Source: an uncultured Cohaesibacter sp.
GTDB taxonomy: Bacteria; Pseudomonadota; Alphaproteobacteria; Rhizobiales; Cohaesibacteraceae
Length of the DNA stretch: 64,000 bases
NCBI RefSeq assembly: GCF_963664735.1
Contig: NZ_OY761553.1
Coordinates: 1,565,303 to 1,629,302, forward strand
Reading direction: 5' to 3'
The position numbers and the translations under genes are program-made. This document shows positions 15,454 to 33,900 of this stretch, piece after piece; position 1 is the first letter of the stretch, and every line of letters begins with the position of its first letter. The notes under the pieces are model-generated. The model saw only the letters and a program-made list of their open reading frames with translations. It made no database searches and had not been told where the DNA came from.

Positions 15454-16190
15454 TGGATATGCAATTCTTCTGGGAGTCGCTGGTCACCCTGATCCCCGGC
15501 ATTCCTCTCACTCTGTTGCTGGCGTTCCTCTCCACGTTCCTTGGAGCCTTCATTGCCTTGCTGCTGGCAACCATGCGCCTCTCCGGCATCAAGCCACTTG
15601 ACTGGTTCGCACAAGGTTATCTGTTCGTGTTTCGCGGTTCACCGCTGCTCGTGCAGTTGTTCTTGATTTATTATGGCCTCAGCCAGTTTCCGGCTATCCG
15701 CCATTCATTCGCATGGACATTCCTGCGCGATCCCTATTGGTGCGCGATCATTGCGTTGACGCTCAACACGGCCGCCTATGCCAGTGAGGTCATCCGAGGC
15801 GGCCTTCTTTCCGTGCCTCAAGGTCAGGTTGAAGCGGCGCGTGCCTCTGGCATGTCGGGCTTCAAGCTGTTCCGCCGCATTGTCTTCCCGCTGGCCATCC
15901 GGCAGGCTCTGCCCGCCTATGGCACCGAGTTGATCCTGATGGTCAAAGCCACCTCGCTTGCGTCCATCATCACCATCATGGAAATCACCGGGCTCGCCGC
16001 CAAGCTGGTCTCCGAAACCTACCGGGTGATTGAAGTCTTTATTGTTGCCGGTGCCATCTATCTGGCCATCAACTTCATTCTCACCCGTATCGTCATGGCG
16101 CTGGAATATAAACTGACGCCACATTTGCGTGAGCCTCGTATTCTGAGCGCACTTGCCCTTGAAAATGAATCTGCTGGAGAAATTTCGTGA
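15453..16190 (+). CDS. Polar amino acid ABC transporter permease (HisM/ArtM type)
   Basis: A 245-residue partner permease. The hallmark [16 protein letters not shown] lies at about 60-75 and the [17 protein letters not shown] coupling loop at 127-143. The coding region overlaps the ATPase gene by 4 bases (GTGA), indicating translational coupling. Confidence 0.92.
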
Positions 16191-16969
16191 CTGGTCCCGT
16201 ATCCCAAAACAGCGCGGTCGCTGTCAGCCTCACTGATCTGCACAAATATTTCGGCGATCTCGAAGTCCTCAAGGGCGTAACCATGAAGGCGCACGAGGGC
16301 GAAGTGGTCTCGATACTGGGCTCTTCGGGCTCGGGTAAATCAACCATGCTTCGCTGTATCAACATGCTCGAGACACCCACATCGGGCACGGTTACCGTCG
16401 GTGATGAAGTCATCAAGCTGGTAACAGACCGCAAGGGCAATGTGAAAGCGGCTGATCGCAAGCAGATCGACCGTCTACGCACCCGGGTTGGCATGGTGTT
16501 CCAATCCTTCAATCTGTGGTCTCACAAGACAATTCTTGAGAATGTCATCGAGGCGCCGATCCATGTTCAGGGTCGCGACAAGAAGGACTGTATCGAGGAA
16601 GCAAAGGATATTCTTGCCAAGGTGGGCATTGCCGACAAGCGCGACTTCTATCCATCGCACCTTTCAGGCGGGCAGCAACAGCGCGCGGCCATTGCCCGTG
16701 CCCTCGCCCAGCATCCTGACGTATTGCTGTTTGACGAGCCGACTTCGGCGCTTGATCCGGAACTGGTGGGTGAGGTTCTGCGCGTTATGCGCGGCTTGGC
16801 TGAAGAAGGCCGCACCATGCTGGTTGTGACCCACGAAATGGGTTTTGCGCGAGATGTCTCGAACCGTGTTGTGTTCTTGCATCAGGGGCAGATCGACGCA
16901 GAAGGCAGCCCGCAAGAGCTGTTCAATGACAAGAGCAACGAACGTTTTCAAAAATTCATTGCCGGCTAA
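16187..16969 (+). CDS. Polar amino acid ABC transporter ATP-binding protein (HisP/GlnQ type)
   Basis: A 260-residue ABC ATPase that powers the importer. Walker A GSSGSGKS is at 45-52, the Q-loop in [11 protein letters not shown], the signature LSGGQQQR at 159-166, Walker B LLFDEP at 180-185, and the switch His in VVTHEMGFA. It starts at GTG 16187 with CTGGAGAA upstream, inside the end of the permease gene. Confidence 0.95.
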
Positions 16970-16987
16970 AGGCGGCAGTCAATAGCT

Positions 16988-17014
16988 CCGGCCCAAGCCA
17001 TCCCGGTCGGCCGG
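16988..17014. repeat. Intercistronic inverted repeat
   Basis: CCGGCC and GGCCGG flank a 15-base loop between the ATPase and binding-protein genes. Such hairpins are common ahead of or behind binding-protein genes and may tune mRNA stability. Confidence 0.35.
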
Positions 17015-17039
17015 TCAATCACCAAAAAGGGAAAGTAAC

Positions 17040-17888
17040 ATGAAAATCTGGACCCGACTTCTCGGGGTGGCCATGACAGCAGCGATGCTGTTGGCAGGCC
17101 CTGCGATGGCAAAAGAATGGAAAACCGTCAAACTCGGCACCGAAGGCGCATTCCCTCCGTGGAACTCCACCAATGCGGACGGCACCCTTGAAGGCTTTGA
17201 AATCGATCTTGGCAAGATCCTGTGCGAACGCATGGAAGTGAAATGCGAATGGGTCGTTCAGGATTGGAAAGGCATCATCCCTGCTCTCAACGCGGGCAAA
17301 TTCGACGCCATCATGTCCGGCATGTCCGCTACGGCAAAACGCGCTGAAGTGATCGACTTCTCGATTCCTTACGGCTCCACCGGCCAGACCTTCGGCGTTC
17401 TTTCCGATACCGACCTCGTCGACCTGCCGCTTAATGGCCAAGTCTTCCCGCTCGCTTCCAAACCGGAAGAAGCCAAGAAAGCAATTGAAGAAATCAAACC
17501 TTTCTTCAAAGGCAAAATCATCGGTGTTCAGTCTTCCGCAATCGCTGAACGCTTCTTGCAGGAAAATCTCGCTGACGTGGCTGAAATCCGCGAATATGGC
17601 AAGACACAGGAACATGACCTTGATCTGATGTCCGGTCGTGTTGATGCTATCATGGCTTCTACTGCTTACATCTCCACCGCCATGAAAGATCCGGCTAACG
17701 AAGGTATGGTCCTTGCTGGCCCTCGTTTCCAGGGCGGCATTCTGGGTAAAGGCAGCTCGCTTGGCCTGCGCAAGGGATCTGACGATCTGAAAGCCATGTT
17801 CGACAAGGCTATTGCATCCGCTCGCGACGATGGCACCATCAAGGAACTGTCCATCAAATGGTTCGGCTTTGACGTGACCGTCTACTAA
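17040..17888 (+). CDS. Amino acid ABC transporter periplasmic binding protein, family 3
   Basis: A 282-residue binding protein of the LAO/HisJ type. A classical signal peptide ends at AGPAMA-KE (about residue 24). The mature chain shows the family pattern: GTEGAFPPWN, GFEIDLGKILCERM, WKGIIPALNAGKFDAIMSGMSATAKR, and DLMSGRVDAIMAS. AAAGGGAAAG precedes the ATG. A rather long insert (about residues 125-160, rich in Lys/Glu) lies between the two lobes. It is the last gene of the operon, followed by a strong terminator. The ligand may be the amino-acid conjugate cleaved by the adjacent amidohydrolase. Confidence 0.93.
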   Translation: MKIWTRLLGVAMTAAMLLAGPAMAKEWKTVKLGTEGAFPPWNSTNADGTLEGFEIDLGKILCERMEVKCEWVVQDWKGIIPALNAGKFDAIMSGMSATAKRAEVIDFSIPYGSTGQTFGVLSDTDLVDLPLNGQVFPLASKPEEAKKAIEEIKPFFKGKIIGVQSSAIAERFLQENLADVAEIREYGKTQEHDLDLMSGRVDAIMASTAYISTAMKDPANEGMVLAGPRFQGGILGKGSSLGLRKGSDDLKAMFDKAIASARDDGTIKELSIKWFGFDVTVY

Positions 17889-18022: not shown

Positions 18023-18994
18023 TCAAGGTTTGAGAATGGTCGCGCCAGTGGTCTTCCTGCCTTCCAGAGCTTCGTGAGCTTTGGCTGCGTCCTTGAGAGG
18101 CATGGAGGCAACGACATCGGCCTTCACATCGCCACTGACCAGACGGCTGAACAGATCGGTTGCCCTCAAGACAAGATCTTCCCGCTTTGCAACATAGTCA
18201 AACAAAACCGGACGGCTGGCAGCCTTTGACCCTGCGGCCAGATCAGAGAGCTTGAAATCAGCGATCATGCCTGAGGACTGACCAAAGTTGGCAAACATGC
18301 CAAATGGCTTGAGGCAGGCAATGGAACCACGCCATGTATCTTTGCCGACACTGTCATAAACCACTTCACAGCCTTCACCGCCGGTCAGTTCCATGACCCT
18401 CTCGGCGAAATTCTCTTCACGATAATTGATGACGTCCGTATAGCCATGCTTAAGCGCCAAGGCGACCTTTTCGGGAGAGCCTGCCGTACCAATGGCGCGG
18501 GCACCAAGAGCTTTCAGCCACTGGCCGAGGATGAGCCCCACGCCACCTGCTGCGGCATGCACCAGCACCGTATCACCGGCCTTGACCTTATATGTCGAGG
18601 TGACGAGATACTGCGCCGTCAAGCCTTTGAGCATAACCGAAGCGGCAAGGTCATCCGACACGCCATCTGGCAGCACCACAAGGCGATCTGCAGCCAATAT
18701 GCGACGTTCTCTATAGGCACCGAACTTCAGGACATAGGCCACTCTATCTCCAACCTTGAGCCCTTCAACACCCTCACCGATAGCTTCCACGACACCGGCA
18801 GCTTCGGCACCGGGAATCATGGTCTCTTCCGGCCAAGGGTAAAGCGCAGTTCTGTTGTAGACATCGATGAAGTTGACGCCAATTGCCGTGTGGCGCACCA
18901 GAGCTTCTCCGGGACCAGGCACGCCTGTTTCCAGGGCGCACCACTCCATGACTTCCGGACCACCAGGTCTGGAAGCGACAAGTGCCATATCCAT
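18023..18994 (-). CDS. Zinc-independent quinone oxidoreductase / MDR-family dehydrogenase
   Basis: A 323-residue medium-chain dehydrogenase/reductase of the quinone reductase type. It has the GVNFIDVYNRTALYP segment, the proline-glycine rich PGAEAAGVVEAIGEGV, and the NAD(P)H-binding motif VHAAAGGVGLILGQW; zinc ligands are absent. The ATG at 18994 is preferred to the one 21 bases upstream because CGGAGA lies directly before it. It is the last gene of the large minus-strand operon and would reduce a quinone or enone intermediate with NADPH; the substrate is unknown. Confidence 0.85.
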   Translation of the reverse strand: MDMALVASRPGGPEVMEWCALETGVPGPGEALVRHTAIGVNFIDVYNRTALYPWPEETMIPGAEAAGVVEAIGEGVEGLKVGDRVAYVLKFGAYRERRILAADRLVVLPDGVSDDLAASVMLKGLTAQYLVTSTYKVKAGDTVLVHAAAGGVGLILGQWLKALGARAIGTAGSPEKVALALKHGYTDVINYREENFAERVMELTGGEGCEVVYDSVGKDTWRGSIACLKPFGMFANFGQSSGMIADFKLSDLAAGSKAASRPVLFDYVAKREDLVLRATDLFSRLVSGDVKADVVASMPLKDAAKAHEALEGRKTTGATILKP

Positions 18995-19073
18995 TTTTTT
19001 CTCCGATTTTTGCATCGGCGCCGTCTCATGGGATCGGCGACGATGCTAAAGTCATTGTTTTATGTTGGGTTTG

Positions 19074-19481
19074 TTAAGCCAGAAATTCAGGATCAACTGG
19101 AACCTGCAAAGCCGTTACCAGATGGTTGGTCTGGGCAGCCAAGCCAACAATAGAGAGGAGCTCGGCGTAGGTGTCCTCTGTCATTCCCTTGGCACGAGCC
19201 TGAGCTGTGTGGGAATGGATGCAATATGAGCAGGAATTGGCGGCAGAAACAGCGATGTAAATCATTTCGCGTGTCATCGGGTCAATGTTGCCCGGCGTAA
19301 GCATAACGGCCTTGAGGCCTTCCCATGTCCGTTTGAGTAGGGCCGGATCAGCAGCTCCCAGTACGCGCCAGAAATTATTGATGAAATCGGTTTTACGCAG
19401 TTCGCGAATTTCGTCAAAGACTTCCTTTACAGCCGGGATATTTTCAACTTCTTCATCAGTCAGCACTTTTACAGTTGCCAT
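19074..19481 (-). CDS. Carboxymuconolactone decarboxylase (AhpD-fold) family protein
   Basis: A 135-residue all-helical protein with the CxxC-x(3)-H motif: Cys84, Cys87 and His91 in the segment NSCSYCIHSH. In this family the motif supports peroxidase or disulfide chemistry (AhpD) or, without the cysteines, lactone decarboxylation. The intact cysteines favour a thiol redox role. AGGAGG precedes the ATG. It sits between an aminotransferase and a quinone reductase gene, so it may handle an oxidised intermediate or peroxide made by the pathway. Confidence 0.85.
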   Translation of the reverse strand: MATVKVLTDEEVENIPAVKEVFDEIRELRKTDFINNFWRVLGAADPALLKRTWEGLKAVMLTPGNIDPMTREMIYIAVSAANSCSYCIHSHTAQARAKGMTEDTYAELLSIVGLAAQTNHLVTALQVPVDPEFLA

Positions 19482-19493
19482 TTTGGTATCCTC

Positions 19494-20348
19494 CTAGGCG
19501 TGCGCCCATTCCATGTATAGTGAACGAGCCTTTTTGGTGATTGGCCCGTATTCGAGTTCCCGGTCTTCTATGCGAGATACCGGAATAACCTTTGAGATAT
19601 TTCCGGTAGAAAAGATTTCGTCCGCTTCCATGAAGTCCTCAACGGTCAAGGTCATTTCATGAACGCTGTAGCCCGCGTCGCGCAGCAGGCCCAAAACGCG
19701 CTTGCGGGTGATGCCGGCAAGGAAAGTGCCGTTCGGAATGGAGGTAAAAACCTCACCACCACGCACCATGAAGACGTTGGCGGTTGCCAGTTCGGCCACG
19801 TTGCCAGCGCAGTCTGTTACCAGTGCATTGTCGAAGCCCTTGAGCTGGGCTTCGCGAACCATGCGCGCATTGTTGGCATAAAGGCAGGCGGCCTTGGCGT
19901 TGGTCGGGGCAACGGCAATGGTCGGGCGATGGAATTTCGTGGTTGTAATGGAGAAACCGGTAGGTTCCACCATCGGGATTTCCTCAAGGCAAAGGGCAAA
20001 ATCGGTAGACGATGCCAGCGGCGGCAATGTGCCGATATCGCTCTCCTCGGCCCAATACATCGGACGGATATAAACATCGGTGTTGGGAGCGAACTTCTTG
20101 ATGCCTTCCTTGGCGAGCGCTTCGATTTCCTCACCGGTGAAGGTTGGCTCCAGCATCAAGGCCTTGGCGGAGCGGTTAATTCGCTGGCAATGCAAGTCCA
20201 GATCCGGATAGACGCCTTCAAACAGACGTGCTCCATCAAATACCAGAGACCCCAACCATGTTGCATGAGAAGCCGCGCCCAGAATGCGCACATCGCCTTC
20301 ATGCCAGTCGCCTTTGTAATAGGTCCACATTGCTCGCTTTGCAGCCAT
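19494..20348 (-). CDS. Branched-chain-type (fold IV) aminotransferase
   Basis: A 284-residue PLP enzyme of class IV. Landmarks are LGSLVFDGARLFEG near the N terminus, YIRPMYWAEE, KAACLYANNARMVREAQLKGFDNALV around the PLP lysine, and GNVAELATANVFMV and GTFLAGITRKRVLGLL in the C-terminal half. ATG 20348 is chosen because AAGGAG and AGGAA stand just upstream; a longer frame to 20369 is unsupported. Family members include IlvE, D-alanine aminotransferase and (R)-amine transaminases. Location in a sugar-type import operon away from ilv genes suggests a catabolic role on an amino-bearing substrate rather than isoleucine/valine synthesis. Confidence 0.85.
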   Translation of the reverse strand: MAAKRAMWTYYKGDWHEGDVRILGAASHATWLGSLVFDGARLFEGVYPDLDLHCQRINRSAKALMLEPTFTGEEIEALAKEGIKKFAPNTDVYIRPMYWAEESDIGTLPPLASSTDFALCLEEIPMVEPTGFSITTTKFHRPTIAVAPTNAKAACLYANNARMVREAQLKGFDNALVTDCAGNVAELATANVFMVRGGEVFTSIPNGTFLAGITRKRVLGLLRDAGYSVHEMTLTVEDFMEADEIFSTGNISKVIPVSRIEDRELEYGPITKKARSLYMEWAHA

Positions 20349-20380
20349 TTCCTTACTCCTTGACATCATCCGGTCATCCG

Positions 20381-21877
20381 TCAGTGGACGGCCGCATACA
20401 TTATTTTTTCTTCAGTTGCTTCGGATGGAGAAAATTCTTCAACGATGCGCCCCTGACGACAAACCAGAATTCGGTCAGACAGGTTCATGATCTCCGGCAA
20501 GTAAGAGGAAATCACGACCACAGCCAGTCCTTGATCGGCCAAATCATTGATGATCTGATGGATCTCGGCAATTGCACCAACGTCCACACCGCGGGTCGGC
20601 TCATCGAAAATGACAAGCTTTGGCTGCTGCACGAGGCCCTTGCCGATAACCACCTTTTGCTGGTTGCCACCGGACAGCTCGACCACACGGGCATTGTCGT
20701 TGATGGCCCGGATATTGAGTTTCCTGGACCAATCAGCTGAGACCTCGCCCATCTCTTTCTTGCTGATATACCAAGCCTTGTCGTGCCCGGCGGCGATGAG
20801 ACCGGCATAGATATTCTCGGCAATAGACATGGTTTCGAAGAAACCTTCGCTCTTGCGGTCTTCGGTTACATACACGATGCCGTCATTGACGGCCTCTCGC
20901 GGCACATAATAACGGGTCGGCTTTTCATTGAGCACGATGGTTCCGCCGCGCAGAAAGTCGCGTTTGTAAATGCCGGAAACAATCTTGAAGGTCTCGGTGC
21001 GGCCAGACCCGATCAGGCCGAATACGCCGGTGATCTGGCCTGCAAAGATCGAGAAGGAATTGTTACGGACCATGGCACCCATGGAGATATCCTGTACCGA
21101 AAGCACCTTTTTGCCCGCCTTGCGCACCCCGCTTTCACCCCGATCCCGATAGAGCTCGCCAGAGAGCGTACGCCCAACCATGGCCGAAATGATCTTGTCT
21201 CGCGTAAAGGTTTCGGTCTTGCCGCTGGCCACCAGCTCGCCGTCACGCAGAATGGTGATCCTGTCGGAAATCTGCAGGGCTTCTTCCAGCGCATGGCTAA
21301 TGAAAATGATGGACACACCGCTGTTCTTGAGGCGCTCGATAAGGGCGAAGAAATGGCGTTTTTCTTCCGGTGTCAGTGTGGCGGTCGGTTCGTCGAAGAT
21401 GATCACTTCGGCTTTGTGGTGCACTGCGCGGGCGATCTCGACCATCTGGCGTTTTGCCGCGCCAAGCGTTGCCACCAGTGCCGTCGGATCAACGGAGAAG
21501 TTCAGAGACTGCAGGAACTGCTGAGCAGAAATGAAGGTGCCACGCAGACGGTTGAGAAAGCTTTCAGACCCCAGATAAAGATTCTGCGCAACCGTCATGG
21601 ATGGCACAAGGCTGGTTTCCTGAAACACCATGGCAATGCCTGCGTCCAACGCCTCATTGGGATTGGTAAAGACCTTTTCCTTGCCATGATGAAACATCTT
21701 GCCAGAGGTGGGTTCCACCACACCGGCCATCATTTTGGTGAGGGTCGATTTGCCAGCCCCGTTCTCTCCCAGAAGCGCATGAACCTCGCCCTTGTGCAGC
21801 TCAAAATCAACGTCCTTGATAGCGGGAACGCCGCGATAGGCTTTGGTGATTTTTTCCATACGAATGATGGGTTCCAT
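20381..21877 (-). CDS. Ribose-type (CUT2) ABC transporter ATP-binding protein, RbsA/MglA-like
   Basis: A 498-residue tandem ATPase. The first nucleotide-binding domain has Walker A GENGAGKS at 37-44 and the degenerate signature usual for RbsA. The second has LSGGNQQKVVIGKGL and Walker B VIFDEPTRGVDVG. It drives import through the two permeases encoded upstream (22.9-27.4 kb). GGAGGG stands before the ATG, and the gene follows the free propeller gene by 4 bases, so translation is probably coupled. Confidence 0.95.
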   Translation of the reverse strand: MEPIIRMEKITKAYRGVPAIKDVDFELHKGEVHALLGENGAGKSTLTKMMAGVVEPTSGKMFHHGKEKVFTNPNEALDAGIAMVFQETSLVPSMTVAQNLYLGSESFLNRLRGTFISAQQFLQSLNFSVDPTALVATLGAAKRQMVEIARAVHHKAEVIIFDEPTATLTPEEKRHFFALIERLKNSGVSIIFISHALEEALQISDRITILRDGELVASGKTETFTRDKIISAMVGRTLSGELYRDRGESGVRKAGKKVLSVQDISMGAMVRNNSFSIFAGQITGVFGLIGSGRTETFKIVSGIYKRDFLRGGTIVLNEKPTRYYVPREAVNDGIVYVTEDRKSEGFFETMSIAENIYAGLIAAGHDKAWYISKKEMGEVSADWSRKLNIRAINDNARVVELSGGNQQKVVIGKGLVQQPKLVIFDEPTRGVDVGAIAEIHQIINDLADQGLAVVVISSYLPEIMNLSDRILVCRQGRIVEEFSPSEATEEKIMYAAVH

Positions 21878-21881
21878 ATCC

Positions 21882-22937
21882 CTAGCCCTCCGCTTTCGTA
21901 TCTTTTATGCCAAGCAACAGGTCCCCACCCTTGGAGGCGACGATCACTTCGCCATTATGCTCGATGGCGCTACAAACCCCGTGACGGTTACCGTTGGCGC
22001 GACTGTGCATACTGGAAACCGGGTTCATGGTTTTGCTCAAACGCACAACCATGCCGTAAGAACGGGCAGGAGCCCAAGCCTTGTAGACGCCCATGGTGCG
22101 AATGCCACCGCATTGCAGCGGTTCAAGGAAACTGCGGTTGGAATAAAGCGCAGGAGCGATCCAATAATCGCGGGGTACGCTTTCCATCATATCGTAGCGA
22201 TAGTGCTTTTCCTGCAGCACCAGTTCCACCAGACGGTTGCGCGGGGCAAAAACCGAGAGAATGGCGCCGCCATCGCTGGTTGGCATGATCCGAGCCGGAT
22301 AGCCGGGGATCTGATCAATCAACACGGAAATGTTGTAGTCGGCATCCAACTGCATGACGCGATGTTTCCAGCTTTCCGAGAAGACAAGGCGACCGCCACT
22401 CAAGGGGCAAAGACCGTAGGGGTAAGCCAAACCGTCAGCAACCTTTTCAAATGGCTGACTTGGTGTATGTCTTACCCAGATCGAACCACATGACTTCTTG
22501 CTCATCAGGTCAGCGGCCCAATCGGAGCATAGATGGGCAGAAGAGCCATTAGCCAACCACAGAGAGCCGTCATAGGAAAAGGCAAGAGCCGTAATCGCCT
22601 TGATTTCAGCAAGAAGATGGACCGGCTCACCATCAACAAAGAGCTGTGCCGTTTCCAGTGCAACTGCCAACTTGTCATCTTGTGAAACCGCAATGGCTGT
22701 AATGGGCGCTTCAAAGGAGCGGAGCAATTTGGGCTCTGCGCCCTTATTGACGGCATAAATCGCATTGCCTGATGTAGCAATCACTTCACCTTTGTAGACA
22801 GCCAGATTATCCGGTTCAGAAAGATGAGACATGATGTCCGCATCATCCAGTACCGTGTTGGGTCGGAAGGCGCCATCCATGGGCGGAATGGTTACGGCCT
22901 TGCCGCGGAAGATATCAAGAATGGGATCGAGGATCAT
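21882..22937 (-). CDS. Strictosidine synthase/SMP-30-like beta-propeller protein (free form)
   Basis: A 351-residue protein without a signal peptide. It shows the propeller family pattern: LAYPYGLCPLSGGRLVFSES, then WKHRVMQLDAD, PGYPARIMPTSDGGAI, and a C-terminal VCSAIEHNGEVIVASKGG. The family (SMP-30, gluconolactonase, strictosidine synthase, paraoxonase-like) is mostly calcium-dependent lactonases or esterases. The ATG at 22937 overlaps the TGA of the upstream permease fusion (ATGA) and has GGGGAG upstream. It resembles the C-terminal half of that fusion protein but is divergent, so two related propellers act in this operon. Enzymatic activity is inferred only. Confidence 0.72.
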   Translation of the reverse strand: MILDPILDIFRGKAVTIPPMDGAFRPNTVLDDADIMSHLSEPDNLAVYKGEVIATSGNAIYAVNKGAEPKLLRSFEAPITAIAVSQDDKLAVALETAQLFVDGEPVHLLAEIKAITALAFSYDGSLWLANGSSAHLCSDWAADLMSKKSCGSIWVRHTPSQPFEKVADGLAYPYGLCPLSGGRLVFSESWKHRVMQLDADYNISVLIDQIPGYPARIMPTSDGGAILSVFAPRNRLVELVLQEKHYRYDMMESVPRDYWIAPALYSNRSFLEPLQCGGIRTMGVYKAWAPARSYGMVVRLSKTMNPVSSMHSRANGNRHGVCSAIEHNGEVIVASKGGDLLLGIKDTKAEG

Positions 22938-25057
22938 GCTTTTTCTCCCCAATAGGACGTCATGCCGGTCCAGTTCGGGTCAGCCCCTTCCAGATCATAA
23001 AGACCGATACGGTTGTTCAGAATACCACCGATAAAGAGTTTGCCCTTATGCTCGCGCATGGAGGTAACCATCGGATGCGCTTGCCCGGTGAGATCGCCCA
23101 TGGTCTTAATGATTTTGCCGTTGTCATCGAACTTGACGAGGCCGCCAGTGTTGATGTTCGGGAACAACCAGTCATCCTGAGGCAAACGGCGCGTCATGCG
23201 TTTGCGCATGTCCGGATGGCGCAAGGACAAATCGAAACTCGGGGTTCTCATGCCGAGCCAAGCCATCCAGTAAGTGCCATCGGAAGCGCGGTTGATGTTA
23301 TCGGTATAACCAGGCATATCCTTGATGACGCATTCCACGGTGCCCTTTTTCGGTCCGGCGATCCAATAGCGATGGATACGGCTTCTCCAGCTTTCAGAGA
23401 AATAGAGCGACTGGCCATCATGGGCAATGCAGACACCGTTGGTATAGCGATAGCCATCAAGCAGGGTCTTTGTGGACCCGTCCTTGGGATCATAGACCAG
23501 AAGACGGCCGGTGCCGCGGTTTTCAATGGAATCGAGCATCCATTCGTGGGCGTCATAGCGCTTGGTGGAGTCTGTGAAGTAGATCTTTCCGTCCGGCGCG
23601 ATATCCAGATCGTTCGGGTCACGCATGCGGGCGTCGTCCACGATGGATGTCCATGACCGTTTGGTCTCAGCGGAAAGGCGGGTCACTTCGCGATCGGGAG
23701 AAATCTTGTAAAGCCCCATGGCACCGACGCAAGAGATGAGATTTTCATCCTTGTCGAAAGCCAGACCCAGCGGGAAACCACCAACATGAGCAAAGACTTC
23801 GGAGCGTTTGTAATCTGGGGCAAAGAAGCGGACAATCTCACCATGGCGCGTGCCACAATAAAGATGATCATTGCGGTCAAGGATCACATCCTCCGGCCCT
23901 TCCAACTCACCCAGACCGATATGCTGGGCATTCGAGAGCTTGTTGTTGAGCGAATAGGCAGAGCCCGACCCCGGTTCGGCGGATTCCGATTTGCCCATTT
24001 TCAGATAAACAGGCGCAACATAGATCTCGTTTAGCACCTTGTGGCGGTTCTTGAGCCAGCGAATGTCAATGGTCACGGCAAGCGCAAGCATGATGCCGAG
24101 CACCATCTGGTTTGTACCGGTGCCAAAGCCAAGACGGATAAGGCCGTTGGTCATGACCAGAACGATGATGGCACCCATGATGCCCTTGACCACAGATCCA
24201 CGGCCACCGCCAAGAGAGTTGCCGCCAACCACTGCGGCAGTTAAGGCGAGGATTTCCAACCCCATGCCCGTGCCCGGCCCGGCGCTCGAGAGGCGCGTCG
24301 CCATCAGGAAGCCGGAAACACCGGCACAAAAGCCCGAGAACACATAGGTCATGAAAACGATGTGGCGAACGCGGATACCGGCATTGTGCGCGGAGCGACG
24401 CGAGCCGCCCACAGCTTGCACATGCCAGCCCGGCCGAGAGCGGGTCAGCGCGATATGCGTGATCAATGCAAAAAGCAGAGCGGTCAAGACCGGGACAGAG
24501 AAGCCAAAAACCGTTCCGTCGCCGATGAAATCCCAAAGATCGGAAGAGGCAAAGGACATCTGGACCTCGGCGCCATATTGCACCACCAGAATGTCGAACA
24601 GAGCACGGCCGATGATGAAGGTCACAAGCGTGGTGAGAAAGGCGCGCAGACGCAGAAAACCGATGAGATAGCCGTTGATCGCGCCGCAGACAACGCCGGT
24701 TGCAATGGCTGCCAAAAGGCAGACCCAAACAGGGGCTTCAAAAATGAAGAAGGTGCCAACAGATGCAAATGTCGCCAGCGCAAAGATGGACCCGACCGAA
24801 AGATCGATACCGCCGCCAAGCATGACCACAGTCAAGCCAGTAACGACCAGTGAAAACTCACCCAACTGGCGTGTGGATTCCTGAAGCGAATAGGGTTTGA
24901 AGAACCCCGGAATTGCAGAACCGAATACGAAAACAACAGCCACCAGGACGATGAAGGGGATGGCGTTGTCAGTCCATCTCTTGGTCAGGATTTCACCCAC
25001 CAAGTGATCCGGGATGTAGTTGTAGCGCCAGGCTTGCATTCTTTCACGAAAGGCCAT
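22934..25057 (-). CDS. CUT2 ABC transporter permease fused to a strictosidine synthase/SMP-30-like beta-propeller
   Basis: A 707-residue fusion in one uninterrupted frame. Residues 1-345 are an RbsC-type permease with eight or more hydrophobic spans and the family motif GGGIDLSVGS at 81-90, plus GGNSLGGGRGS at 278-288. A polar linker (346-375, rich in Ser/Gly/Glu) follows. Residues about 376-700 are a beta-propeller: EGPEDVILDRNDHLYCG, RDPNDLDIAPDGKIYFTDS, YTNGVCIAHDGQSLYFSES, RYWIAGPKKG and PGYTDNINRASDGTYW, matching strictosidine synthase/APMAP-like proteins. RbsC-type permeases end in the cytoplasm, so the propeller is probably cytoplasmic and could act on the substrate as it emerges. It is flanked by the binding protein gene and a second propeller gene. 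Confidence 0.9.
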   Translation of the reverse strand: MAFRERMQAWRYNYIPDHLVGEILTKRWTDNAIPFIVLVAVVFVFGSAIPGFFKPYSLQESTRQLGEFSLVVTGLTVVMLGGGIDLSVGSIFALATFASVGTFFIFEAPVWVCLLAAIATGVVCGAINGYLIGFLRLRAFLTTLVTFIIGRALFDILVVQYGAEVQMSFASSDLWDFIGDGTVFGFSVPVLTALLFALITHIALTRSRPGWHVQAVGGSRRSAHNAGIRVRHIVFMTYVFSGFCAGVSGFLMATRLSSAGPGTGMGLEILALTAAVVGGNSLGGGRGSVVKGIMGAIIVLVMTNGLIRLGFGTGTNQMVLGIMLALAVTIDIRWLKNRHKVLNEIYVAPVYLKMGKSESAEPGSGSAYSLNNKLSNAQHIGLGELEGPEDVILDRNDHLYCGTRHGEIVRFFAPDYKRSEVFAHVGGFPLGLAFDKDENLISCVGAMGLYKISPDREVTRLSAETKRSWTSIVDDARMRDPNDLDIAPDGKIYFTDSTKRYDAHEWMLDSIENRGTGRLLVYDPKDGSTKTLLDGYRYTNGVCIAHDGQSLYFSESWRSRIHRYWIAGPKKGTVECVIKDMPGYTDNINRASDGTYWMAWLGMRTPSFDLSLRHPDMRKRMTRRLPQDDWLFPNINTGGLVKFDDNGKIIKTMGDLTGQAHPMVTSMREHKGKLFIGGILNNRIGLYDLEGADPNWTGMTSYWGEKA

Positions 25058-25259: not shown

Positions 25260-26291
25260 TTACTTGCCTTCAGCTTTGGCCTGAAGAGCCTTCAGATCCC
25301 AGCAGCTGTCAGCCCGCATATTGTCTTTGGTGGTGGCTTCCATCAAAGTGTAGATGTAGGTAGCTGCAGAACCGGCTGGCTGACCGCTCTGAAGCAGGTA
25401 TTTGATGATCGAAACCATGTTGTGGGATTCCTGAGCCAGAGCAGTTGTAACAACTGCGCCGTAGGTTCCGTCTGCGATGCGATCACAATCGGCGGTCTGT
25501 TCGCCACCACCGGTGGTAACCAGGAAGACTTTATCCTGCATGCCAGCGTCACGAATGGCCGCTGCGGCACCTGTTGCATCACCATCCCAGAAATCGATGA
25601 TGCCGCAAACGTCAGGATTCTGCTGCAACATAGTGGTGGTCACGTTACGAGAGGTGGTTGCGTCCCAGTTGGAATCTGGCTTGGCAACAACTTCAAAGTC
25701 CGTATGCTCGGCCAGCACTTCCATGATGCCCTGATACTGAAACAGGCTGGTTGCGTTGACCTGATCGCCCTGCACCAGACCGATCTTCTTGGAAGAATCC
25801 GGACCACAGCCTTTGATAACAGCCTCAGCCTCAATACGGCCAAGCTCTGTCCAGTCGCTGCCGACATAGGCGTCAGCCTTGAAGTTGGCCGGGTTGTCGA
25901 CGAGGATGACATAGATGCCAGCCTTCTGCGCACGTTTCATTAGCTTGGAGTAGGAGTTCATGTCCGGAGACTGAATGATCAGCACGTCAGGTTTTGTTTC
26001 AGAAGCAATTGCTTCGGTGATTGCCTGAGCACCGGATTCCACACTCCAGTTCGGATCGCGCGTTTCAAAGATGCCTCCGAAGGCTTCCACTTCGCGCTGA
26101 ACGATAGCAGCCCAACCCTGAGCAAGGTCAAAGCCCATGGTCATTGGAACCAGCATAACGCGTTTTCCGGTAAGCGCCTTGGAATAGATTTCTGGGCCTG
26201 GATCACCTGCTGCCGAAGCTTGCGCAACGAGAGCCGCGGAGCTGATGGTAAGCGCCGCAGTTGCGGCCATAAGGGTTTTGATGATGTTCAT
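25260..26291 (-). CDS. Ribose-type (CUT2) ABC transporter substrate-binding protein
   Basis: A 343-residue periplasmic binding protein of the RbsB/Peripla_BP_4 type. A signal peptide ends near ALVAQASA (about residue 27). The mature protein shows VMLVPMTMGFDLAQGWAAIVQREVEAFGG and KPDVLIIQSPDMNSYSKLMKRAQKAGI, then VDNPANFKADAYVGSDW and VCGIIDFWDGDATGAAAAIRDAG. AGAGAGGG precedes the ATG. It lies between two permease genes and delivers the ligand to them. The ligand is not identifiable; sugars and autoinducer-like molecules are usual for the family. Confidence 0.92.
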   Translation of the reverse strand: MNIIKTLMAATAALTISSAALVAQASAAGDPGPEIYSKALTGKRVMLVPMTMGFDLAQGWAAIVQREVEAFGGIFETRDPNWSVESGAQAITEAIASETKPDVLIIQSPDMNSYSKLMKRAQKAGIYVILVDNPANFKADAYVGSDWTELGRIEAEAVIKGCGPDSSKKIGLVQGDQVNATSLFQYQGIMEVLAEHTDFEVVAKPDSNWDATTSRNVTTTMLQQNPDVCGIIDFWDGDATGAAAAIRDAGMQDKVFLVTTGGGEQTADCDRIADGTYGAVVTTALAQESHNMVSIIKYLLQSGQPAGSAATYIYTLMEATTKDNMRADSCWDLKALQAKAEGK

Positions 26292-26397: not shown

Positions 26398-27369
26398 CTA
26401 GATATCGCCTTGCTGGGCAGTCTGCTCATCGCGCGGGTTCAGAATGCCATCGACGATGATGGCACCCAGCAAGATACTCGCCTTGATAAGGTTCTGATAA
26501 AGCAGGGGAATATCAATAATAGTCATGGCGTTGAGCATGATTCCGATAAGGGCTGCGCCGAATAATACGTTGCGCGCACTCCCCTTGCCGCCAGACAAGC
26601 CAATACCGCCGATGACGGTGATCAGCACGATGTCATAAAGCAGGTTGGAATTGACAATGCGGGTGTTGATCGAATGCAGGCTGGCGGCGGTAAGAATGCC
26701 TGCAACGAATGCAATCAACGCTGAAATCACGTAGCGCAGAACCATCATCGGACGAACCGGCATGCCCGAGTTGCGGGCGGCCTCCGGGTTATCACCGGCA
26801 TAATAGACATACCGTCCCCATTTGCTGTAGCGCAGGAACAGGAATGTGGCAAATGACAGCCCGGCGAAAATGAAAACCTCAACGGGGATACTTGCAAACC
26901 GCATACCACCAAGTATCTCGACCCAATGTCCTTCAGGGACAGGAACCGCGTCAGTCGTAATCAACTGGGAGCGCACAAATCCGAACACAAATGAAGAGCT
27001 GGCAAGCGTTACGAAAATGGCTGGCACGTCAGCATAGGCAACCAGAATGCCATTGATCAGGCCGATGACGACAACGCCAGCCAAAGAGAACAGCAGCGCA
27101 CTGCCCTCACCCATGCCCGCATTGAGCATTTGCAAATAGCAGGCAACGGACATGGCCATGATGGCCACCATTGAGAGGTCAATTCCCCGGCCGATGATGA
27201 TGATCGCCATTCCAAGAGCGAGGATACCAAGCACCGAAACGGAACGAACGATGGAGACCAGATTATCCGCAGTAAAGAAACCCGGCAAAAACAACGATGC
27301 CAAAGCGAAAATCGCTATGGTAATCGCCAAAACGATGCTCTCTTGGTTCAGATTCTTAAAAAAGCTCAT
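26398..27369 (-). CDS. Ribose-type (CUT2) ABC transporter permease (RbsC-like)
   Basis: A 323-residue permease with about eight to ten spans. It contains GRGIDLSMVAIMAMS, the family loop near residue 65, and a C-terminal GGIGLSGGKGSARNVLFGA. It is the first gene of the operon behind the LysR regulator; a perfect 7-base dyad lies just upstream. It pairs with the permease-propeller fusion to give a heterodimeric channel, which is unusual because RbsC channels are often homodimers. Confidence 0.93.
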   Translation of the reverse strand: MSFFKNLNQESIVLAITIAIFALASLFLPGFFTADNLVSIVRSVSVLGILALGMAIIIIGRGIDLSMVAIMAMSVACYLQMLNAGMGEGSALLFSLAGVVVIGLINGILVAYADVPAIFVTLASSSFVFGFVRSQLITTDAVPVPEGHWVEILGGMRFASIPVEVFIFAGLSFATFLFLRYSKWGRYVYYAGDNPEAARNSGMPVRPMMVLRYVISALIAFVAGILTAASLHSINTRIVNSNLLYDIVLITVIGGIGLSGGKGSARNVLFGAALIGIMLNAMTIIDIPLLYQNLIKASILLGAIIVDGILNPRDEQTAQQGDI

Positions 27370-27539: not shown

Positions 27540-28487
27540 TTAGATGACCTGAAGATGACCATATTGTGCGTAATCAATCAAATTTTCTTCTTCTTGTTGC
27601 TCGGCACAAATGTGATTACCAAGCTCATCAATAAATCTCTGACCATATGCCGGGAGCGGGTGAAGGACGTTCCACATTGCGCAAATACCAAAAGTGATGG
27701 GCTCGCCTTTCAAAGCAATGGGGCGGCTATGCAGTTTGGGTTCTTGAAACTGCGCCGAAGAAGGAACGACAGCAACTCCATTGCCACCAATGGACATTGC
27801 CAGCAACGTGTGTGGTGAATTGCTCTCCAGAACGACGCGCGGAACCTTGCCACTCACTCGGCAAGCCGCATCAAAAACCTCCCGCGAGACATGTTTCTTG
27901 TTGAGCGTCAAAATCGGCAATGAAATAAGCTCTTCAATTTCGATCTGTTCATCCTGATCACCGAGGAACTCGGAAATACCGACGGCCAGAAAACCCAGTT
28001 TCCCCAAGGGACGGCTTCCCAACACCTCAATCGGCACAGATGGTTCTGCGCTGATAGTCAGATGAAAGACACCATCTTCCAGTTTCGCGGCGAGCTCTGG
28101 CCCGCCTCCATCCTCAAGGCGGATTTCAATATCAGGATTTTCCTTGATCCACCTTCTCAGGAACTGAGGCATATAGCGTTCGATAAGCTGAGAGCAGGCC
28201 CCAATTTTCAAAAGGCCGGATTCTCCGCCCGTCAAATCATCAGCAAAAGTCCTAAGCTCTCTGTCGGCAACCAGAACATTGTTGATTTTTGCAAGCAATG
28301 CCTCGCCCTGAGGTGTAAAGCGGATGTTGCGACCGGTTTTTTCAAACAGCTTGACGCCCAGATAATCTTCCAGAGCCTTGACCTGGCGCGAAAGCGCCGA
28401 CTGCGTAATATTCAAACGCTCGGCAGCCTTTGTAAAATTCATCAATTCTGCTACCGCTACAAAGCTGGTGTAGTTGCGAATATCCAT
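27540..28487 (-). CDS. LysR-family transcriptional regulator
   Basis: A 315-residue regulator. The N-terminal helix-turn-helix (residues 1-60: FTKAAERLNITQSALSRQVKAL) is followed by a two-lobed effector domain (about 90-300). It is encoded on the same strand as, and 170 bases upstream of, the importer/propeller operon. It probably activates that operon when the pathway substrate or an intermediate binds. The C terminus is long and acidic (EEQEEEN). Confidence 0.92.
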   Translation of the reverse strand: MDIRNYTSFVAVAELMNFTKAAERLNITQSALSRQVKALEDYLGVKLFEKTGRNIRFTPQGEALLAKINNVLVADRELRTFADDLTGGESGLLKIGACSQLIERYMPQFLRRWIKENPDIEIRLEDGGGPELAAKLEDGVFHLTISAEPSVPIEVLGSRPLGKLGFLAVGISEFLGDQDEQIEIEELISLPILTLNKKHVSREVFDAACRVSGKVPRVVLESNSPHTLLAMSIGGNGVAVVPSSAQFQEPKLHSRPIALKGEPITFGICAMWNVLHPLPAYGQRFIDELGNHICAEQQEEENLIDYAQYGHLQVI

Positions 28488-28942: not shown

Positions 28943-30904
28943 TTGCTGTCTCGGCGGGAAATTCAGACAGAGCACAAGGGTAACGCTTGGGTTGGTGGCG
29001 CCGCTTCGACTGCCAGGCCATGGGCTGTGCTGTGCCTTGCCGCTACGATTTTATCGTCTGGTTGGACGGTTCAGGCTGCCGCTTTTGAGCTTTTTGGGTA
29101 TAAATTCAGCTCAAGCGGCATTGAGAAGGCCGGGGATGCAAAGGCTACTGCCGACATTGCCAATCCCGTTTCCTACAGTGTGACGCTTACCAGCGACAAT
29201 GAAGAACTCAAGGAAGCTGTAGAAGAAGCGTCTCTGCTTATCGAGAAAAAGGAAGAACCCGCCTCTGGAACAACCGGACTTCTTGTGCGCGCAAGAAGCG
29301 ACCAGAAACGCCTGATTGCCGCGCTCTATCGCAAAGGATTATATGGCGGTACAGTCGACATCACGGTCAATGGCGAACGGTATGATCGGGTAGCTCTTGA
29401 TGAAGACCTCTCTGGAAAAGCCGTCAAAGTTGCGATTTCTGTTACGTCCGGGCGTGTGTTTACATTCTCCAAGCCTGACGCAAAGCTAAGCGACGGCTCG
29501 TCCATCGGCCTTGCCCGCTATGGCGTTGTCGCCGGATCGCCAGCCTATTCCCAGTTGGTTATCGATGCTGAGGACGCAATTGTATCAAGCTACAAGCAGC
29601 GCGGCTTTGCTCTGGCCAAAGTGGAAGAACGCTCTCTGGCAGCCGATCACAAAACTGGCAAGCTGGATGTAAGCTTGCGTGTTGATCAGGGACCTCTTGC
29701 CCGCTTCGGTCAAGTAACCGTTTCAGGCAACAAGGATGTTGATAGCGAGCTAATCGTCCAGCAGGCAGACATTCCAGTTGGCGAGACCTACAGCCCGGAA
29801 ATAATATCGAAAGCGAGCAGAAACTTGCGCGCTCTGGGGGTGTTTGACAGCGTGATTGTCAAACCTTCCGAAACGATATTGGCTGATGGCAGCTTGCCAA
29901 TTGAAATATCTGTGAAGGAACGCAAATTCCGCACCATCGGCGCCGGCGTTACGATCGGTAATCTGGATGGCGTTGGCCTTGAAGGCTATTGGGTGCACCG
30001 CAACCTGTTTGGTGGTGCAGAGAGCCTGCGCATTCAGGGATCTGTTGCCAATATCGGTCAGGATGACGTAAAGGATCTGGACTATAACGCCGATATCATC
30101 TTCAAAAAGCCCGGCGTCCTTGGCCCTTCGAGCACCTTTGATTCCAAGCTATCGCTCGACTTCACCAATCCTGATGCCTATCAGAAGCGGTCTGTCAGTG
30201 GCGAAGTTGGCCTTAGCTATCAGTGGAGCGACGAGCTTTCCACTCGAGCCGCCTTCAAGGCTGAATATGCTCGCATCACCGACAACAAGGGCTCGGAAAC
30301 GAACCTGTTATTCTCCACACCTTTGGAGCTGGCCTATGACCGGCGGGACAGCAAGCTTGACCCAACCAAGGGCTTTTATGCCTTGATTGATACCGAGCCA
30401 ACCATCAGCAGCGATGGCTCCATCGGTTTTGTAAAAAGCAGCGCCACCCTCTCGGTCTATCAGGCAATCGACAAGGCCAAGCGGTTTGTACTGGCTGGCA
30501 AGCTTTCGGCTGGGTCCATCGTGGGTGCTTCCAAGAGTGATGTCCCTACCGACCGTCGCTTCTTCACCGGTGGTGGTGGTAGCATTCGCGGCTATTCTTA
30601 CCAGATGGCAGGCCCCAGAGATGCTAGCAACGACCCAACGGGTGGCCTGTCCTATATCACGGCATCCTTGGAAGCGCGCATGAAGCTGACCGACACAATC
30701 GGTATGGCTGCATTCATCGACACAGGGAACAGCTTCAATAGCACTTTGCCGAAATTTCAGGACGAATGGTACACCGGTGTTGGCGCTGGCCTGCGATACC
30801 TTACCCCAATCGGTCCTCTAAGACTTGATGTCGCCGTACCACTCAAAAAAATCAAGGGCGAGCCCGATTTTGGTGTTTATTTGGGGTTAGGTCAGGCTTT
30901 CTAG
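28943..30904 (+). CDS. tamA: Translocation and assembly module outer-membrane protein TamA
   Basis: A 653-residue Omp85-family protein. It starts at a TTG with GGAG eight bases upstream, and an ATG-TAG just before cannot be used. A hydrophobic signal segment lies at about residues 27-47. Three POTRA-like repeats follow (about 60-330; GLYGGTVDITVNG, GPLARFGQVTVSGNKDV). The C-terminal beta barrel (about 335-653) contains the surface-antigen signature RRFFTGGGGSIRGY and ends in Phe. With TamB it builds the envelope-spanning complex that inserts some outer-membrane proteins and moves phospholipids. Confidence 0.93.
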   Translation: MLSRREIQTEHKGNAWVGGAASTARPWAVLCLAATILSSGWTVQAAAFELFGYKFSSSGIEKAGDAKATADIANPVSYSVTLTSDNEELKEAVEEASLLIEKKEEPASGTTGLLVRARSDQKRLIAALYRKGLYGGTVDITVNGERYDRVALDEDLSGKAVKVAISVTSGRVFTFSKPDAKLSDGSSIGLARYGVVAGSPAYSQLVIDAEDAIVSSYKQRGFALAKVEERSLAADHKTGKLDVSLRVDQGPLARFGQVTVSGNKDVDSELIVQQADIPVGETYSPEIISKASRNLRALGVFDSVIVKPSETILADGSLPIEISVKERKFRTIGAGVTIGNLDGVGLEGYWVHRNLFGGAESLRIQGSVANIGQDDVKDLDYNADIIFKKPGVLGPSSTFDSKLSLDFTNPDAYQKRSVSGEVGLSYQWSDELSTRAAFKAEYARITDNKGSETNLLFSTPLELAYDRRDSKLDPTKGFYALIDTEPTISSDGSIGFVKSSATLSVYQAIDKAKRFVLAGKLSAGSIVGASKSDVPTDRRFFTGGGGSIRGYSYQMAGPRDASNDPTGGLSYITASLEARMKLTDTIGMAAFIDTGNSFNSTLPKFQDEWYTGVGAGLRYLTPIGPLRLDVAVPLKKIKGEPDFGVYLGLGQAF

Positions 30905-30947
30905 CCTTTATAGTCGGTACAGCTGATTCTCCAGACATGAGGCCATC

Positions 30948-33900
30948 ATGAAGTCTGCTTATTCCTCGATATTTCGGGGCCTCTATATATTGCTGTTTGT
31001 TCTGCTGGCGCTGTTGCTGGTCGGATATTTGCTGCTCTCAACAAGTTTCGGTTTGTCGATGACCGCAAACTTGGTCAATTCGATTGCCAGCAGCGACGAG
31101 CAAAAGGTGGAAATTTCGGGTCTCGATAGTCTTCTGGGTGACATCACTATCAAGCGGGTATCGCTGTCTGACAAGAACGGCACATGGCTGGAAGCCAAGG
31201 GGCTGAGCGGCCACTATTCACTTCTGGCCCTTTTCAGTCTGGATCTATCAATAGACAGTGTTGGTCTGGAAGAGCTCAATGTCAGCCGCCTCCCAGCAGC
31301 TTCAGATACGCCAGCTGAGGATACCAGTTCTGATGGTTCTCTCATCCCCAGCCTGCCTGCAGTTAGCGCAGAAGTCGGGGAACTTTCCATCCGCAGGATT
31401 TCTCTTGGCGAAACCGTTTTGGGCAAGGCCGCCGAGTTGACCCTTTCCAGCAACATGGCTCTCGATGGCGCCCCGTTCAGAACCTCCGGCTCTTTAGATT
31501 TGCACTATCTTGATGCGCCAACGGACGGTTTAACCAGCAGTTGGGATCTGGCCCCATCGGAAAACCGGCGACTGTTGTCATTGGCCTTTACCGAGCCACG
31601 TGGCGGCCTTGCAGCGAGACTTATCGATATGGCTGATCTTCCGGCCATAGATATTTCCCTTAAAGGCGACGGGGCCGCCGACAATTGGCGTTCTGATCTT
31701 TCGGTCAAACTGGATGGCCAGGAAACTGTCAGCGGCCAGGTCCTTGTTTCTCTCGCGGATGCCTCTTCGCGCATCAATGCAAAATTGCAAGGTAAGCTTT
31801 CCCCCTTCCTGCCCAGCTCGGTCATCCCTCTTGTAGCGGGCACGAGCACGATCGACCTTGCTGTTGAACAATCCAAAGATGATGTTTTGCAGCTAAAGCA
31901 ATTGTCCTTTGTTTCCGGTCTTGCCCATCTTGAAGCGAGTGGCTTCCTGAATAACAGGGACAACAGCCTAGATGTTGCAATGCGGTTTAATCTTGGTCAG
32001 GAAGGCACTCAAATCGAATTGCAGCAGACCGATGCGCCATCGCTCAATATTGGGCATGTCGGACTTGAAGGCCGTTTGAGCGGCTCGCTCGACAAAGCCG
32101 CACTCAAGCTTGAAGGTTCCCTTGCGAGCCTCGCACAAAATAGTCTGGCAGTTGACGGCGTATCTTTGTCTATGTCCGCTCCTGAACTCAATCTTCAAAC
32201 CCCAGCGGGGCTGATCAACACCAAGATCACGGTCAACAGCATTGCGTCGGGCTCCGACCAGCTAGACGCCATCCTTGATGGCACAAAGGCGCTTGATATC
32301 AGCAGCCAGTTATCCGGCCAAGAGATCGAGTTGAAAGATCTCACCCTCAATGCCGGGTTGCTATCGGTGAAAAGCCAAGGGCGTTATGCCCCCGATGCTC
32401 TTGCCTTCAAGGGCAATATCGCACTTGCCGATCTCAAGCCGATTAATGACGGTCTATCGGGTGCGCTCAAGGGTAGTTTTGCCGTTGACGGCACAGCGAG
32501 TGATCCGCATATCACGCTCGCCATGTCCAATCAGAAATTCTCCGTTTACAACAAGAGCATCAGCGAGTTAACGCTTGACCTCGCGTCAACCGCAGCTCCC
32601 GATGCGCGTCTTACACTCGCGGCGCTCTATGACGGTTCGCCCCTCAAAAGCGCCGTTGAACTCAAGACAAATGAAGACGGAAGCCGCTCAATCAACAAGC
32701 TTGAGGTTTCTGCTCCGGGGACAAGCATCAATGGTGCATTGTCCGTTGCGTCAGACGGGTTGGCGACAGGGTCCATCACAGCATCGGTCTCGGATTTCTC
32801 CGAGCTTGGTCCGCTCTTGCTGCAACCGGGCCTCAAAGGATCGCTCAAGGCGGATATTTCCCTGTCATCGGCAAATGGCAAGCAAGCGGTTGACCTGCAA
32901 GCAACAGTACCTCAACTTGCCATGGACGCCATGTCCTTGTCTGCCATGAAGCTTGCGTCCCAGATCAACGATGTGACGGGCTCCATGAGCATGAACTCAT
33001 CACTGACTGTCGACAGGATCACAGCTTCGGGAGAAACGATCCGCTCACTCAAAGCCAACATGACCGGTCATGACGGCAACTTGCCATTCTCGCTCGACGC
33101 CTCTCTGTCTCAGGCGCCACTAAAGCTCTCGGGCACTTTCTTGCAGCAGGATAACCGTACGGCGCTTGCACTTGATACATTCTCGGGCCGCTGGAAATCT
33201 ATCGCCCTGTCGCTGGTCGAGCCTGTGAAGATCGACCTGAGCAACGGAGTAAAATTGGGCAACACCCTGACGCTCGCCGTTGACTCCGGTACTGTAGCAG
33301 TCTCTGGTTCGGCAGGAGATCAGTTGGATCTTGCCATTGCGCTCAACAAAATCCCCCTGTCCATAGCAGAGAAAGTCACTCCGACTGGCGAGACACCGAC
33401 GGGACAAATCGACTTGACGGCACAGGTTAGCGGCTCTTCAAGCAATCCGGTAGCCACATGGAAAGGATCATTAAGCGGGCTTTCTGTCCGCTCCACGCGC
33501 CAAGCCGGTTTACCCCAGTTAGCCATCAACAGCTCCGGGCGTTTTGACAATAATATCATTACCATGCAGAACCATCTCACCGGCGGGGGGGCTGATTTGG
33601 CAGTGAGCGGCAACGTCGGGCTTACTCGCCAATCGCTCAACATTGCTGCCAAAGGCTCTGTTCCCTTCTCCCTCGCGGCCAGAAGCCTTGCCGATGCAGG
33701 CCTGCAGCTGGATGGCAGCGCCAATGTGGCGGCAAATGTAACAGGCAGCTTTACTGCACCCGACATCAAGGGGTCGATCACAACCAAGGGCGCCCGCTTT
33801 TCTGAATTCTCTTCGGGTATCGTGTTGCGTGACCTTGCAGGAACCGTGACGCTGGAAGGTCAGCGAGCCGTCATTCAGTCTGTTACGGGGCGCCTTGGCA

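Follow-up and report, generated by a model that had tools for sequence, protein, structure and literature searches.

A CUT2-type importer permease fused to a strictosidine-synthase-like propeller within a conserved five-gene cassette of Alpha-, Beta- and Gammaproteobacteria

In a 64,000-nucleotide stretch of DNA from an uncultured Cohaesibacter sp. (contig NZ_OY761553.1, positions 1,565,303 to 1,629,302; hereafter the window), a single minus-strand gene at 22934..25057, consisting of 707 codons plus a stop, joins a permease of an ATP-binding cassette (ABC) transporter to a strictosidine-synthase-like propeller. An earlier sequence-only reading of this DNA had proposed such an in-frame fusion and the proposal holds: the open reading frame, Pfam and NCBIfam matches and a structure model identify a CUT2 permease and a propeller in one 707-residue frame, and the arrangement is conserved in other genomes. 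Judged by its sequence features, the system is a CUT2 importer to which an N6P superfamily protein has been joined. We propose, as an evenly balanced judgment, that the permease of this importer may carry an ester or lactone hydrolase acting on the incoming substrate. Our computations support the fusion itself, the five-gene cassette in which it lies, its predicted sidedness, the fold of the propeller and the pattern of conservation and loss of a putative metal site.

The permease domain (residues 1–345; 24023..25057, on the minus strand like every gene and domain given coordinates below unless stated otherwise) matches Pfam BPD_transp_2 across residues 65–327 with 122.8 bits against a cut-off of 26.8, in keeping with the RbsC-type channel recognized earlier, and has ten membrane helices in the structure model, with both ends predicted to be cytoplasmic. 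The final helix extends to residue 345 and is followed by a loop, and the strands of the propeller start at residue 378. The intervening linker (residues 346–372; 23942..24022), where model confidence is low at residues 347–349, had been described as a polar spacer of 30 residues. It is polar in the window protein but is not free-form: near its start it carries Y-[VI]-[SA]-P in 43 of 44 fusions and the looser motif Y-x-x-P in all 44. The propeller domain itself (residues 373–707; 22937..23941) is covered by Pfam matches that all exceed their cut-offs, namely SSL_N (368–411), SGL (412–602) and Str_synth (482–568; 80.5 bits against 25). Together with a fold search, which bears on the propeller and barely covers the permease part, they bear out the complete propeller of six-bladed type that had been read from the sequence; six blades and SSL_N/Str_synth sequence place the domain among the strictosidine-synthase-like N6P proteins.

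Averaged over the 44 fusions, the predicted inner loops of the permease contain 15.2 lysine and arginine residues and the outer loops 0.6. Because these residues are concentrated in the predicted inner loops, the fused propeller is predicted to lie on the cytoplasmic side of the membrane, the location on which the earlier proposal of hydrolysis at the channel exit had been made conditional.

A full-length frame without a stop, 53–95% identical to that of the window, is present in 12 of the 60 other genomes searched as relatives: 10 of the 17 congeneric genomes, together with G023 and G032, which belong to two further families of the order. A stop or frameshift between residues 345 and 376, named in the sequence-only reading as what would undo the fusion, is not found in these relatives, and because they carry the frame uninterrupted a frameshift artefact can be excluded without resequencing. 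The general rarity of such fusions is the one argument for an annotation or assembly artefact, an explanation to which we attach a negligible probability; it is ruled out because the frame runs through unbroken in 59 distinct sequences spread over many genera.

At every fusion locus examined, up to the limits of the contigs and across Alpha-, Beta- and Gammaproteobacteria, the fusion is found with a whole cassette in the order permease, binding protein, permease-propeller fusion, free propeller and tandem ATPase, which answers the earlier suggestion that the same domain order be sought in related genomes. The hosts include many soil and marine bacteria. In the window the second, unfused CUT2 permease (323 aa; 26398..27369) matches BPD_transp_2 with 102.9 bits against the same cut-off of 26.8, and the periplasmic binding protein (343 aa; 25260..26291) is of the ribose/allose type, matching Peripla_BP_4 with 142.8 bits (cut-off 35.1) and exceeding the cut-off of none of the specific NCBIfam models. 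The sugar-type ATPase (498 aa; 20381..21877) has tandem nucleotide-binding domains, seen as two ABC_tran stretches on one chain, and AraG/RbsA-type models match it near full length and below their cut-offs. The sugar-specific NCBIfam models among the matches listed remained below cut-off for the permeases, the ATPase and the binding protein alike. BPD_transp_2 transporters are common in the window's genome (one contig, 4.94 Mb), since it contains 26 matches to this family. Elsewhere in the same genome, frames of 631 and 764 aa (G000:C1:157672-159420 and 205369-207330) have two BPD_transp_2 matches each and may represent further permease fusions.

The cassette is also carried by plasmids. Among 15 plasmid records in which one match spans 80% or more of the query, the gene order is identical in all 10 annotated loci viewed, and carriers include Shinella, Rhizobium, Pantoea, Paraburkholderia, Sulfitobacter, Celeribacter, Salipiger and Paracoccus. 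Existing annotation labels eight of these 10 plasmid relatives as SMP-30/gluconolactonase/LRE family proteins and two as permeases. At least 22 of the 80 loci retained from named genomes hold the fusion (L049–L070), the remaining 58 being permease-only or propeller-only matches, and the cassette is present in all 22 as far as the contigs extend; contig ends cut L053, L056, L057, L063 and L067, in L067 inside the fusion. The same order holds in further genome regions that were scanned, within their reach. In a sample of 385 genomes of the class, for which the fusion search scored two candidates per genome, 18 matched at E ≤1e-60, ten with the fusion (that of G427 cut by a contig end) and eight with the propeller only; in a sample of 398 genomes of the phylum 11 matched at 1e-100, with the window's own genome counted. 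Strong matches to the free propeller (E ≤1e-59) occur in the same 10 class genomes as the fusion. None of these strong matches belongs to an unfused version of the cassette, as a fusion adjoins each. Weaker matches (E 1e-28 to 1e-15) come from those 10 and 11 other genomes, where they lie within fusions or in stand-alone frames of shorter length. Five cassettes are present in genome G400, four seen whole and the fifth (contig C26) from the fusion to the ATPase; three free propellers of this genome, seemingly apart from the two fusions listed, each proved on inspection to have a fusion of its own. On its contig C25 three complete fusion cassettes (L188, L189, L196) lie close together, beside genes for 3-hydroxy-3-methylglutaryl-CoA (HMG-CoA) reductase and HMG-CoA lyase. 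Around stand-alone strictosidine-synthase-like proteins in seven loci (L022, L023, L077, L087, L096, L106 and L115) we found no cassette genes in the available flanks, which for L022 and L023 amount to about 1.5 kb; near the protein of L106 there is a single ATPase-type match.

The putative metal site of the fused propeller is formed by E389, N482, N540 and D586/N587. Residues E389, N540, D586 and N587 are invariant in the 59 distinct fusions, some of which are 95% identical to each other, and position 482 is N in 20 (including the window protein) and D in 39. By sequence, all four putative ligand positions are thus kept in 59 of 59 fusions if N or D is accepted at 482, and the site is retained down to 41% identity. 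The sequence-only reading had been prepared to give way if the propeller lacked any metal site and any conservation in homologous fusions; a conserved putative site is seen. The closest solved relative by sequence is TGW6 of rice (8kg3; 7.2e-31, against 2.5e-21 for the runner-up), and E389, N482, N540 and N587 align with four residues named for TGW6, by our own residue count; its Asn-272, named by its authors, aligns with N587. TGW6 is an indole-3-acetic acid-glucose hydrolase, and calcium is reported to be absent from the equivalent site of its crystal, where there is a lone acidic residue. This absence of calcium weighs against the metal-assisted hydrolysis proposed here. Because the window protein has the same residue types as TGW6, whose site held no calcium, its binding of a metal is uncertain. 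A second acidic residue is present at the putative site in the 39 fusions that have Asp at position 482.

Strictosidine synthases tie with TGW6 as the best structural matches in the fold search and this, like the Str_synth and SSL_N matches above their Pfam cut-offs, would fit a condensing (Pictet-Spengler) enzyme of the strictosidine-synthase type, which we nevertheless consider highly improbable. Two aligned strictosidine synthases have glycine at both the N540 and the D586 positions, whereas the fusions have N and D there in 59 of 59 cases. The review PMC4215206 is in agreement, placing four metal ligands in most strictosidine-synthase-like proteins, which it regards as likely hydrolases, and stating that these ligands are missing from the true synthases. 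Since the fusions have not lost them, we rejected the idea of a true strictosidine synthase.

The free propeller (21882..22937) is a diverged homologue that lacks the full metal site. Its 351-codon frame begins with an ATG that overlaps the stop codon of the fusion (ATGA), the overlap that had been noticed at first reading; the open reading frame list places the start at a TTG 15 bases earlier (position 22952), which would give 356 aa. At E 0.001 the free propeller matches no model of either Pfam or NCBIfam. A comparison of the fused-propeller and free-propeller profiles gives E 2.9e-31 over 309 columns, and the two are therefore homologous. At the putative metal site, however, the free propellers have diverged from the fusions: the D586 position is A, S or G in all 65 of them and the N587 position is R in 63, G in one and H in one, while E389 is retained in 7 (with the PED motif aligned), N482 in 8 and N540 in 7. 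Counting the five positions together, 49 of the 65 keep none, 10 keep one and 6 keep two, and none keeps more than two, so that the full ligand set expected of a catalytic N6P enzyme is absent from the free propeller. The idea that every free propeller has lost the whole site was rejected, as some keep E389, N482 or N540, a result that leaves our weighting of the explanations unchanged. In the window's free propeller the conserved motif reads PGYPAR, with arginine at a putative metal ligand, as if a fixed positive charge had replaced the metal.

The fused-propeller profile scores the stand-alone proteins at 132–202 bits and the free propellers at 41–127 (one falling below the reporting threshold); the free-propeller profile scores the fusions at 79–105 bits against 52–76 for seven stand-alone proteins. 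A fast-diverging copy would produce this asymmetry, and a separate origin might do so too. The free propeller may well have arisen by duplication of the fused one.

The same data bear on a regulatory gate, in which the fused and free propellers would bind cytoplasmic substrate or product and stop or license transport without any chemistry. Some ABC importers do have C-terminal regulatory domains. No full metal site exists in any of the 65 free propellers, yet these proteins keep strongly conserved motifs (GYPxR, and HSR..G..HG in 44 of 45) that suggest binding, and strong free-propeller matches in the class sample are confined to fusion genomes. Against a gate, a putative metal site kept in every fusion down to 41% identity exceeds what binding alone would appear to need, and we regard this explanation as unlikely, though it deserves to be taken seriously.

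Returning to the hydrolytic importer, we infer hydrolysis, a bound metal, pairing of the propellers and coupling of the reaction to import. The binding protein would deliver a small, hydroxylated and probably cyclic or esterified compound to a channel composed of one plain permease and one permease-propeller fusion, with the tandem ATPase powering import. Carried on the last helix at the cytoplasmic side, the fused propeller would use its central pocket, probably together with a divalent metal, to hydrolyse an ester or lactone bond of the cargo. The freed acid or alcohol would be handed to catabolic enzymes whose genes lie next to the cassette. Pairing with the fused propeller, the free one would play a structural part or sense substrate. 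Three points make hydrolysis at the channel exit appear the most likely function: hydrolytic activity prevails in the fold family, the putative ligand positions do not vary, and the domain is predicted on the receiving side of the membrane. If the propeller is active, the system would offer a compact example of transport tied to a chemical reaction, and would contain both an active and a degenerate enzyme.

In the window the cassette is part of a longer minus-strand run that begins with a LysR-family regulator (27540..28487) upstream of the permease and continues beyond the ATPase with a class IV aminotransferase (19494..20369; PRK13356, 491.9 bits against a cut-off of 262), an AhpD/carboxymuconolactone decarboxylase-like protein (19074..19481) and a quinone-oxidoreductase-like dehydrogenase (18023..19015), assignments made from Pfam, NCBIfam (for the aminotransferase and dehydrogenase) and locus comparison. 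Among the loci compared, this set of four neighbours is complete only in L039, L049 and L050; the same-genus loci had too little flank to tell. In a survey of 54 fusion loci, some with short flanks and with the LysR gene not sought, L201 carries two of the four, and the AhpD-like gene is seen by itself more often. Just past the operon, on the opposite strand (16187-17888), lie an ABC ATPase-type frame and a family-3 binding protein of the lysine/arginine/ornithine type. Beyond the LysR gene, two long plus-strand frames of 653 and 1330 aa (28943-34940) look by eye as if they might be a TamA/TamB pair.

Elsewhere the neighbouring catabolic genes vary by branch while the cassette is constant. In the same 54-locus survey HMG-CoA reductase adjoins the cassette at four loci (L044, L054, L189 and L198), which form two separate pairs on a tree of 65 fusions shown without support values. 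Three of the four reductases score 431–442 bits with the NCBIfam equivalog model of the degradative enzyme, above its cut-off of 260, and that of L189 is a Pfam match only. HMG-CoA lyase is nearby in L054, L189 and L198, passing its NCBIfam cut-off in the first two; the L198 copy, on the other strand, is a Pfam HMGL-like match. Alcohol and aldehyde dehydrogenases lie beside the cassette in L046, L048, L062, L066 and L205, an acyl-CoA ligase in L055, L059, L194 and L210, and a CoA-transferase with a carboxyltransferase in L070 and L192. A single cargo deduced from the neighbours was rejected, as no theme is common to all loci.

The two propellers could instead serve mainly as a scaffold, keeping the dissimilar permeases correctly placed with the ATPase or docking catabolic enzymes at the membrane. 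Such a scaffold fits a cassette of fixed order in which the two permeases differ from each other, as do the two propellers, and it fits adjacent enzymes that change from branch to branch beside a constant cassette. It would leave the invariant metal-site residues unexplained, however, and ordinary CUT2 importers function without one; we consider it distinctly unlikely.

For the hydrolytic importer, the HMG-CoA reductase neighbours suggest a role in mevalonate catabolism, and at the loci linked to this gene the cargo is most likely mevalonate or mevalonolactone, judged from gene content. The reductase exceeds its cut-off in 19 of the 385 class genomes, comprising 3 of the 10 with the fusion and 16 of the remaining 375 (Fisher p 0.01). 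It is adjacent to the fusion in G400, about 15 kb away in G341 and about 256 kb away in G263, and because it is adjacent only in G400, genomic linkage is backed by just one of the three fusion genomes. In the window's own genome no HMG-CoA reductase was found over the cut-off and its cargo is therefore probably a different compound. A broader and more speculative proposal, which we hold with some doubt, is that the cassettes might constitute a family of vectorial-hydrolysis importers, with a cytoplasmic metallo-hydrolase on the permease and a catalytically dead sister propeller, in which a lactone or ester would be opened and trapped as the acid, two branches being mevalonolactone importers that feed a degradative HMG-CoA reductase.

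To our knowledge, there is scarcely any description of ABC importers whose channel subunit incorporates an enzyme. In the open-licence literature of PubMed Central, judged by titles and abstract openings, we found no description of a permease-propeller fusion, and in the open-licence literature no report of an ABC import system for mevalonate catabolism. With the CUT2 importers RbsABC, AraFGH and AlsABC the cassette shares a Peripla_BP_4 binding protein, a BPD_transp_2 permease and a tandem-domain ATPase, but it differs from them in having two unlike permeases, one fused to a propeller, and an additional free propeller. It differs from TGW6 in that its propeller is fused to a transporter subunit, and 39 of the 59 fusions, the window protein not among them, have Asp at the position of TGW6 Asn-167. 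The nearest described fusion we encountered is QsdH of Pseudoalteromonas byunsanensis, in which, according to PMC3466314, a single chain combines a lactonase with a membrane transporter. QsdH has an N-terminal GDSL hydrolase, predicted to be periplasmic, on an RND efflux pump, whereas the cassette fusion consists of BPD_transp_2 and propeller domains, with a C-terminal propeller, predicted to be cytoplasmic, on the permease of an ABC importer.
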